Shown here: positions 48,197 to 50,228 of the stretch, piece after piece
Numbering within the stretch: position 1 is the first letter of the stretch
How the letters are laid out: every line of letters starts with the position of its first letter
Source of the DNA: Paraclostridium tenue
GTDB taxonomy: Bacteria > Bacillota > Clostridia > Peptostreptococcales > Peptostreptococcaceae
Assembly (NCBI RefSeq): GCF_015668515.1
Contig: NZ_JADPFO010000001.1
Span: 1,142,823 to 1,206,822, forward strand
Reading direction: 5' to 3'
Length of the DNA stretch: 64,000 nucleotides
Translations under genes and position numbers: made by a program
Notes under the pieces: model-generated
The model's database searches: none
What the model was told of the DNA's origin: nothing
The model's input: only the letters and a program-made list of their open reading frames with translations

Positions 48197-48225
48197 TTGA
48201 AATTAGCCTTAAAAAATGTTATGCT
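48197..48225 (+). promoter_or_regulatory. Promoter of the ABC-F leader transcript
   Basis: TTGAAA (48197-48202) and TATGCT (48220-48225) are separated by exactly 17 bases. Predicted transcription start near 48232, 13 bases before the leader ORF. Confidence 0.65.
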
Positions 48226-48244
48226 ATCAAAAGAAATTAAAAAA

Positions 48245-48298
48245 ATGTCGTTACTGTATATACTATCAATTATAAAATTGAGATTGATTATATATTAA
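48245..48298 (+). CDS. Leader peptide ORF of ABC-F attenuator (17 codons)
   Basis: ATG TCG TTA ... encodes MSLLYILSIIKLRLIIY and ends in TAA. It begins just after the predicted transcription start, with only a weak AAGAAA ribosome site. Its stop codon lies in the 5' arm of the following terminator, so a ribosome stalled near the end would prevent the hairpin from forming. Short uORFs of this kind precede many antibiotic-resistance ABC-F genes. Translation has not been shown. Confidence 0.55.
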   Translation: MSLLYILSIIKLRLIIY

Positions 48299-48324
48299 AG
48301 AGCTTATTTTTATAGGCTCTTTTT
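48297..48324 (+). terminator. Attenuator terminator in ABC-F leader
   Basis: Stem AAAGAGC / GCTCTTT plus U-run, directly overlapping the leader-peptide stop and about 110 bases before the ABC-F start. No gene other than the leader ORF ends here, so it is positioned as an attenuator. Confidence 0.65.
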
Positions 48325-48341
48325 ATATCTTATTAAGAATC

Positions 48342-48412
48342 AGACCTTTAGGTCGTTGGCGACGTGAAGTAATTTACAGACACGTAGCTTAAGCAAAACG
48401 AATTTTTTTAAA
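48342..48412 (+). promoter_or_regulatory. Structured downstream leader of the ABC-F gene
   Basis: GACCT-TT-AGGTC, then ACGTG...CACGT around an AAGTAATTTACAGA loop, then the palindrome GCTTAAGC and a T7 run. These could form alternative structures (anti-terminator or a second weak terminator). The ribosome site AGAGAGG follows. Confidence 0.4.
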
Positions 48413-48432
48413 TGATAAAGAGAGGTAATTAT

Positions 48433-50172
48433 ATGATAAAAATTGACAACTTGTCCTACTCGCTTCCACAAAAAGACCTATATAATAAGGTTTCATTTAC
48501 ATTAGAAGAGGGGCAACATTGTGCTTTTATAGGAGCAAGTGGTAGCGGAAAAAGCACACTTATAGATATAATAATGGATCCCGAAAAATATGTATTTGAT
48601 GGTAAATTAGAAATGAATCCAAATTTAAGAATTGGATATGTAAGTCAGTTCTCACAACTAGACAAACTAAAAGAAACTACAGTTTTTGAATATATAGCAC
48701 AAGAGTTTATCAAGCTACAAGATGAAATAGCATCTATTTGCAGTGAAATGGAAAACTCTTCTGATATTGATACTTTACTAGAAAAGTACCAAGAAGCTTT
48801 AGATGCATTTGATGCAATTGATGGTGATGATTATGAAAGCAACATTAATAAGAAACTAAATCTTGCAAATTTAACTAAGCATAAAGATAAAATGATATCT
48901 GAACTTAGTGGTGGAGAATTTAAACTTATTCAAGTTATTAAAGAAATGCTTAATAACCCAGATTTAATGATTATGGATGAGCCAGATGTGTTCTTAGATT
49001 TTGAGAATCTTAACGCTCTTAAAGATTTAATTAATTCTCATAAGAAAACACTTTTAGTTATTACACACAACAGATATTTATTAAATCATTGTTTTAATAA
49101 AATTATCCATCTTGAAAATACAGAGCTACAAGAATTTGATGGCAGATATATTGATTACAACTTCTCTCTTCTTCAAACTAAAATCGAGTTACAAGAAATG
49201 GCTATTGCTGATGAAGAAGAAATTGCAAGAAATGAAGCTTTAATCGAAATATTAAGAGAAAAAGCAACCTATAATGCTGAAGCTTCTAGAGGTAGAGCTC
49301 TAAAAGCTAGAGTTAAAATCCAAGAAAGATTAGAAGCCAAAAGAATTAAAGCACCATTTGTAGATATTAAACAACCATATATCAATTTAGAGACAAATAA
49401 TGAAATTGAAGAAACTATTGCCCTAGAAGCTTGTGATTTTTCTATATCATTTGATGAAGTTCTTTTAGAAAATGTTAACTTCGAGATAAAATCTACTGAT
49501 AAAGTAGCTATTGTTGGTACAAACGGTGTAGGAAAAACTACTTTATTAAAAGAAATATTTAAAAATAATAATGAATCTATTAAAATAAATGAAAACATTA
49601 AGCTAGCTTACTTATCACAAATGCAAAGTGAGGTAGTAAATGAGTCTAATACAATACTTCAAGAGTTCTATGATGTTGGATTTGAGACTTATGGTGAAAT
49701 TAGAAAATATGTTTCAAGATATGGTTTTGATTCAGATATACTTACACAAAAGATTGAATCTTTATCTGGTGGAGAAAAAAATATACTTCAATTGGCGAAG
49801 GTTTCTGCTAGTAAAGCAAATATGTTACTAATGGATGAACCTACAAGCCACTTAGATATTTATTCTCAAATGGCTCTAGAAAAAGCCATAGCTAATTACA
49901 AAGGTGCTATTTTAATGATTTCTCATGATTATCATTTTATAGTTAACTGTGCGGATTATGTTTTACTTATTGAAGATAAGACAGTTAGAAAAATGAGCAT
50001 GCGTAAATTTAGAAAGATGATTTATGCTAATCATTTTGACAAAGATTATCTGCAAATTGAAGAAAAGAAAAAGTCAGTTGAGATGGAAATAGCTTCTGCT
50101 TTAAAGGATACTGATTTTGAACGTGCAAAAACTTTATCTACAAAGTTAGAAGAGTTAATTAAATTACTTTAA
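48433..50172 (+). CDS. ABC-F family ATPase (probable ribosome protection type)
   Basis: About 579 residues from ATG 48433 (AGAGAGG is 7 bases upstream; the ATG 21 bases earlier overlaps that site). There are two ABC domains: Walker A GASGSGKST, signature LSGGEFKLIQ and MDEPDVFLD in the first; Walker A GTNGVGKTT, signature LSGGEKNILQ and MDEPTSHLD in the second. They are joined by a helical linker at about 250-320. There are no membrane segments. The first Walker B context is unusual (DEPDVFLD in place of DEPTNHLD). A C-terminal helical extension (about 525-579) is present. ABC-F proteins act on ribosomes; the leader peptide and attenuator upstream favour an antibiotic-inducible resistance factor, which is inference. 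Confidence 0.85.
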   Translation: MIKIDNLSYSLPQKDLYNKVSFTLEEGQHCAFIGASGSGKSTLIDIIMDPEKYVFDGKLEMNPNLRIGYVSQFSQLDKLKETTVFEYIAQEFIKLQDEIASICSEMENSSDIDTLLEKYQEALDAFDAIDGDDYESNINKKLNLANLTKHKDKMISELSGGEFKLIQVIKEMLNNPDLMIMDEPDVFLDFENLNALKDLINSHKKTLLVITHNRYLLNHCFNKIIHLENTELQEFDGRYIDYNFSLLQTKIELQEMAIADEEEIARNEALIEILREKATYNAEASRGRALKARVKIQERLEAKRIKAPFVDIKQPYINLETNNEIEETIALEACDFSISFDEVLLENVNFEIKSTDKVAIVGTNGVGKTTLLKEIFKNNNESIKINENIKLAYLSQMQSEVVNESNTILQEFYDVGFETYGEIRKYVSRYGFDSDILTQKIESLSGGEKNILQLAKVSASKANMLLMDEPTSHLDIYSQMALEKAIANYKGAILMISHDYHFIVNCADYVLLIEDKTVRKMSMRKFRKMIYANHFDKDYLQIEEKKKSVEMEIASALKDTDFERAKTLSTKLEELIKLL

Positions 50173-50180
50173 ATAAATAA

Positions 50181-50228
50181 CCCCCTTAGAATTGATAGGC
50201 TTGTCAATTTTAAGGGGGTTATTTTTTT
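50181..50228 (+). terminator. Terminator of ABC-F gene
   Basis: Stem AACCCCCTTAAAATTGA-type / TCAATTTTAAGGGGGTT followed by ATTTTTTT. Confidence 0.9.

Follow-up and report, generated by a model that had tools for sequence, protein, structure and literature searches.

Premature transcription termination that is relieved by stalled ribosomes has been described for the leaders of two ABC-F resistance genes, vmlR (PMC9226507) and cplR (PMC10201436). The leader ORFs of the known ABC-F genes encode tripeptides, and PLSA-type drugs stall the ribosome just after initiation (PMC10201436, PMC12421871); for vmlR, induction requires both the Shine-Dalgarno sequence and the start codon of the leader ORF (PMC9226507). 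The vmlR leader of Bacillus subtilis joins a proven ORF, MIN, with its own Shine-Dalgarno sequence, to mutually exclusive anti-antiterminator, antiterminator, and terminator structures (PMC9226507). In the cplR leader of Clostridioides and its relatives, an ORF of exactly three codons follows a purine-rich stretch, and the Shine-Dalgarno sequence of the gene is contained in the terminator (PMC10201436).

Here, we analyze the leader of an ABC-F gene on the forward strand of the window, by which we mean the whole 64,000-nucleotide stretch of Paraclostridium tenue DNA under study. Like the cplR leader, it precedes an ABC-F gene and has its own promoter, a terminator shortly upstream of the gene, and an ORF near the 5′ end; with the vmlR leader it shares the ABC-F gene, the terminator, and a hairpin between the ORF start and this terminator. 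Among the Rfam 15 families, none scored above its gathering score in the window, and a lax threshold gave a chance-level match only.

Promoter, terminator, and gene

The earlier note had read the region as a promoter, a leader ORF, and an attenuator controlling the ABC-F gene. The promoter is where it was placed, a sigma-A type TTGAAA-17-TATGCT with an extended -10 (a TG precedes the -10; 48197..48225). We credit it through conservation and not through a motif scan because promoter-like matches, which DNA this rich in AT often contains, are rarer in the region than in shuffles (23 vs 34.5). In 31 nonredundant clostridial-type leaders, the -35, the -10, and the spacer are all conserved, with the spacer at 1.16 bits per column vs 0.17 in an upstream control, figures that cover the clostridial-type leaders only. 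The same stretch aligns with the leaders of Paenibacillus orthologs (TTGAAGTTGGTTGTAAACAGTGTTACTCTAACAACGGTAAACTC vs TTGAAATTAGTCGTAAAAAGTGTTATGCTAnCAACGGTAAACTC), and this likeness at 73–75% protein identity suggests that the stretch is under selection, of which a regulator or the transcript start may be the reason. From Clostridia to Paenibacillus, orthologs retain both the spacer and the bases that follow the -10 (CAACGGTAAACTC; 48197–48240).

An A-rich transcript start follows (48229..48244, with the start site inferred at ∼48232), in which neither the sequence nor the ortholog comparison reveals a Shine-Dalgarno sequence for the short ORF. The ATG of this 17-codon ORF (MSLLYILSIIKLRLIIY and a stop; 48245..48298) lies 20 bases downstream of the -10. 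Its TAA (48296–48298) overlaps the A-tract of the 11-bp stem of an intrinsic terminator hairpin, the predicted attenuator (48297..48322), in agreement with the earlier placement of the stop inside the 5′ arm; the T's after the stem form a U-tract that runs to ∼48325. Terminator-like sites in the region number 5 vs 1.1 in shuffles, although three of the five are nested versions of one downstream terminator. Essentially every clostridial-type leader has this hairpin (GAGCTTA...TARGCTC plus the U-tract), and across 41 leaders 93.9% of the cells of its helix are paired; a slid-partner control over the whole structure gave 33–50%.

Hairpin P1, between the ORF start and the terminator (48256..48295), is variable: 70–79% of its cells are paired, a weak support that shuffle controls did not settle, and it is short or missing in several leaders (L003, L008, L014, L015, and L103). 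Truncated leaders were folded while the bases under a ribosome at codon 1, 3, or 5 were masked, and no consistent antiterminator emerged. For pairing between the ORF start and the sequence before the Shine-Dalgarno, true pairs have a weak advantage over swapped ones (permutation fraction 0.033, uncorrected for relatedness). In short leaders such as L008, the start codon is 20 bases upstream of the terminator arm, so that a ribosome near the start would cover this arm. In L103, hardly any sequence separates the inferred transcript start from the terminator, which leaves no room for any ORF.

The earlier note had also pointed to further pairing sequences ahead of the ABC-F gene. These prove to be a degenerate copy, ∼85 bases long (∼48327..48410), of a dispersed repeat (AAAAATTCGCTnnGCT...GTCGCCAACGA...) and not part of a switch. 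A second copy lies elsewhere in this genome, copies were found in 11 of 40 genomes, and within the Peptostreptococcaceae two genomes (G002 and G006) have at least 22 matches each. Between terminator and Shine-Dalgarno, the repeat occurs in this species and a few relatives (L001–L004, L032) and is absent from the other orthologs. It was inserted later, in this lineage, separating the two elements, and a structure that joins them thus cannot be essential here. The repeat is also seen in the flanks of L004, L010, and L014.

Beyond the repeat are the conserved Shine-Dalgarno sequence of the ABC-F gene (AAAGAGAGG; 48417..48425), identified by sequence and ortholog comparison, and the gene itself (48433..50172; 579 aa). 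A strong intrinsic terminator follows at 50177..50222, and no conserved neighbor or regulator gene was found near the gene among the orthologs compared; because of both, the gene is taken to be a single-gene unit that stands alone in many contexts.

The short ORF in relatives

The earlier note had proposed a leader peptide and had named conservation of the ORF as the check that could overturn this. The ORF is indeed present, but its start, length, and stop are not conserved, and the check goes against a maintained peptide. A start codon occupies the ORF position in 31 of 53 aligned clostridial-type leaders, and ∼10 losses are estimated on a protein tree of 42 gap-free leaders; ATA replaces ATG in six distinct leaders (one Clostridium clade throughout). 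The ORFs range from 1 to 36 codons, with stops anywhere in that range and with very short versions (M, MS, or ML followed by a stop) among them. When all 42 leaders are considered, few positions of the block vary as much as the third base of the ATG, and where a start is present, codons 2–4 show 11 synonymous and 11 nonsynonymous changes (∼0.39 synonymous expected, not significant). Ahead of the ORF, the longest match to the Shine-Dalgarno consensus AAGGAGGTGA amounts to 0 or 3 bases for 29 of the 31 leaders with a start; for the main ABC-F gene, the match is mostly 4–6 bases. The block TCNTTACTACATA is conserved even in leaders that lack the start codon, so its conservation is not explained by a peptide, and Ser/Thr-Leu-Leu is likewise kept there.

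The CplR genes served as a positive control. This genome and five relatives, six of six leaders, all retain the start, the length of three codons, and the stop, with ORFs of the form ATG-NNN-NNN-TAA (MRI, MKR, MNI, MNN, MKL, MRI) that all follow a purine-rich GAAAGGG stretch; the cplR of this genome scores above its own curated cut-off. This CplR-type gene (G000:C10:289365-290996, L154) has the leader ORF ATG AAC ATA TAA (MNI) after GAAAGGG.

Other short leader ORFs were screened as well, and only an in-frame ATG/GTG seven codons upstream of the annotated ABC-F start (48412–48432; MIKRGNN-MIK) recurs more often, in many clostridial orthologs. It was rejected as an alternative conserved leader ORF, as the Shine-Dalgarno sequence sits between both starts and is not suitably placed for it.

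Taken together, the comparison indicates that the 17-codon ORF is no more than chance would leave; it probably encodes no conserved leader peptide, and a sequence-specific sensor made of its 17 residues is unlikely. The leader thereby shares a promoter and an intrinsic terminator upstream of the ABC-F start with the vmlR/cplR type, whereas an upstream ORF of conserved start and length, and a Shine-Dalgarno sequence for it, were sought in the clostridial-type leaders and not found. Because these are two defining features, we do not file the leader as a member of that type. Unlike in cplR, the ORF is not kept and a repeat separates the terminator from the Shine-Dalgarno sequence of the gene; unlike in vmlR, no set of mutually exclusive structures was found. 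By analogy, the leader may work in a way related to the known ABC-F attenuators.

The ABC-F family and the spread of its leader

The gene itself passes no curated resistance model. Its scores stay below the respective cut-offs of Vga (251 against 725 bits), CplR (250 against 780), Sal (218 against 725), and Msr (218 against 680); the general ribosomal-protection model comes nearest (319 against 380 bits), so that no cut-off of a curated antibiotic-resistance (ARE) ABC-F model is reached. By profile hmmsearch, VmlR2 (8buu) is the best match at 262 bits. An Arm subdomain and a short inter-domain linker are seen in the predicted model (mean pLDDT 87). A turn of about two residues connects the linker helices, in contrast to the resistance determinant of VmlR2, which is unusually long (PMC10201436). 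A Foldseek search with this model gave PoxtA (7p7q) as the best match (E 3.9e-41, TM 0.72/0.77), sharing the ABC-F fold and the short linker, with VmlR2 and EttA next. Since the identity to PoxtA is 23% and EttA and YbiT score almost as well, no resistance function follows from this match. As judged from sequence and model, a resistance role is possible for this protein of an uncharacterized subfamily.

Our comparison rests on about 100 orthologs. A protein search of 60 genomes returned 27 relatives at 50–100% identity, and 80 named loci at 71–88% identity come from Peptostreptococcaceae, Clostridium, Sedimentibacter, Fusibacter, Paenibacillus, and Cohnella. Of 60 relatives searched with a covariance model of the leader, 21 gave a match, in almost every case immediately 5′ of this ABC-F gene; where a relative has the clostridial-type gene, the model nearly always finds the leader, once per genome. 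A wider sample of the class, 391 genomes, has the leader in 13, and a genus of that class has it in 16 of the 69 genomes searched. Two further candidates were set aside: the three weakest covariance matches, which might have placed the leader ahead of other genes, are ordinary terminators at or near the ends of those genes, and the sole match that might have indicated plasmid carriage of the ABC-F gene is 50% identical and lies in a 2.6-Mb record.

Several relatives have lost or exchanged the terminator. In Intestinibacter bartlettii DSM 16795 (L033/L007), promoter and Shine-Dalgarno remain, the leader is gone, and there is no terminator; in Intestinibacter N19 (L031/L006), a repeat-like hairpin with a T-tract is found where the attenuator stood. 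The Paenibacillus clade (for example, L063, L067, L094, and L078) lacks the terminator. Most of its leaders have an ORF of ∼17 codons (MFCNTSNNSHYFSYKER and a stop), which ends four bases short of the ABC-F gene. Within this ORF, lengths differ mostly by multiples of three, and L067 and L094 have in-frame duplications; in seven leaders, the frame runs into ABC-F itself. Paenibacillus has replaced the terminator with a different upstream ORF. The distribution points to an ancient promoter and terminator, the former reaching from Clostridia to Paenibacillus and the latter across the clostridial-type orthologs.

When the gene in the window (48433–50172) was compared with L002, L003, L004, and L017–L019, copies from two other genera (G017, G025) shared 95–96% identity with it, but those of three members of its own genus only 79–80%. 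These identities hint at horizontal transfer of the gene together with its leader.

A probable conserved attenuator and its alternatives

We consider it slightly better than an even bet (about 0.55) that the leader is a conserved promoter-proximal transcription attenuator of an uncharacterized ABC-F family. An attenuator is credible, given that its parts, their order, and their deep conservation are found ahead of this gene only. The conserved promoter would start a transcript that meets the intrinsic terminator before the ABC-F Shine-Dalgarno sequence; if the predicted terminator functions, most transcripts would stop early, and ABC-F would stay low unless the terminator is passed. Disturbed translation could provide relief, either through a ribosome arrested around the first codons in leaders with a start, or more generally through a change in how ribosome and polymerase are coupled. 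The known ABC-F attenuators are the source of the idea that such terminators yield to stalled ribosomes, and a drug-stalled ribosome may relieve the terminator here, though not via a conserved peptide. Of the attenuator in the earlier note, the deeply conserved unit of promoter and terminator is therefore retained, and the peptide-driven switch is given up because the ORF is not maintained. What speaks against a need for the attenuator is that the gene persists without a terminator in the Paenibacillus orthologs and in Intestinibacter L007, so the terminator is not needed for persistence of the gene.

Classical ribosome-mediated attenuation, in which a drug would stall the ribosome on MSLLY..., an antiterminator would form, and ABC-F would be transcribed, could draw on the recurrence of MSLL[HY] in Peptostreptococcaceae and Clostridium leaders and on Ser or Thr at codon 2 in 36 of 42 leaders, which fits phenicol and oxazolidinone stalling; PoxtA, the best structural match, is a phenicol/oxazolidinone protection protein. 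We nevertheless find it improbable in view of the repeated start losses, the variable third ATG base, and the even split of codon changes, the persistence of Ser/Thr-Leu-Leu in leaders without a start codon, the missing Shine-Dalgarno sequence and antiterminator, and a CplR control that keeps all three ORF features. A drug-stalled ribosome at the first codons might instead relieve the terminator without peptide specificity, in the three-codon manner of cplR and vmlR, with lineages lacking the start being uninducible or using a near-cognate start. The tripeptide ORFs and early PLSA-type stalling of other ABC-F genes (PMC10201436, PMC12421871) agree with this, as do the one- and two-codon ORFs among the leaders, but vmlR induction needs the very Shine-Dalgarno sequence and start codon (PMC9226507) that are absent here or from many leaders, and no antiterminator was found; we hold this only as a tentative possibility. 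Comparable doubt attaches to a partial terminator that is fixed and unregulated and does no more than hold ABC-F at a low basal level, with a DNA-binding protein perhaps controlling the promoter instead. Conservation of the spacer and of the initially transcribed region, which a plain promoter would not usually show, would fit, as would the absence of a switch structure and the L006 repeat-derived hairpin, a terminator-like stem without leader sequence; however, no conserved regulator gene was found nearby, and a constant-gain terminator would not usually be conserved for so long. Rather unlikely, in our estimate, is an attenuator that works without any upstream ORF, its read-through being set by the promoter and the initially transcribed sequence or by ribosome coupling, with the ORF a passing sequence and Paenibacillus later swapping the terminator for an ORF that ends at the gene start.

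If the preferred reading of a conserved attenuator is right, this uncharacterized and widely spread ABC-F family has a conserved regulatory unit. A short ORF beside a terminator is weak evidence for peptide-sensing attenuation, since the true case in the same genome, cplR, differs on comparison. The orthologs form a natural series, from the terminator leader through the repeat insertion, the repeat-derived hairpin, and complete deletion to the rewiring in Paenibacillus, on which the evolution of attenuators may be tested.
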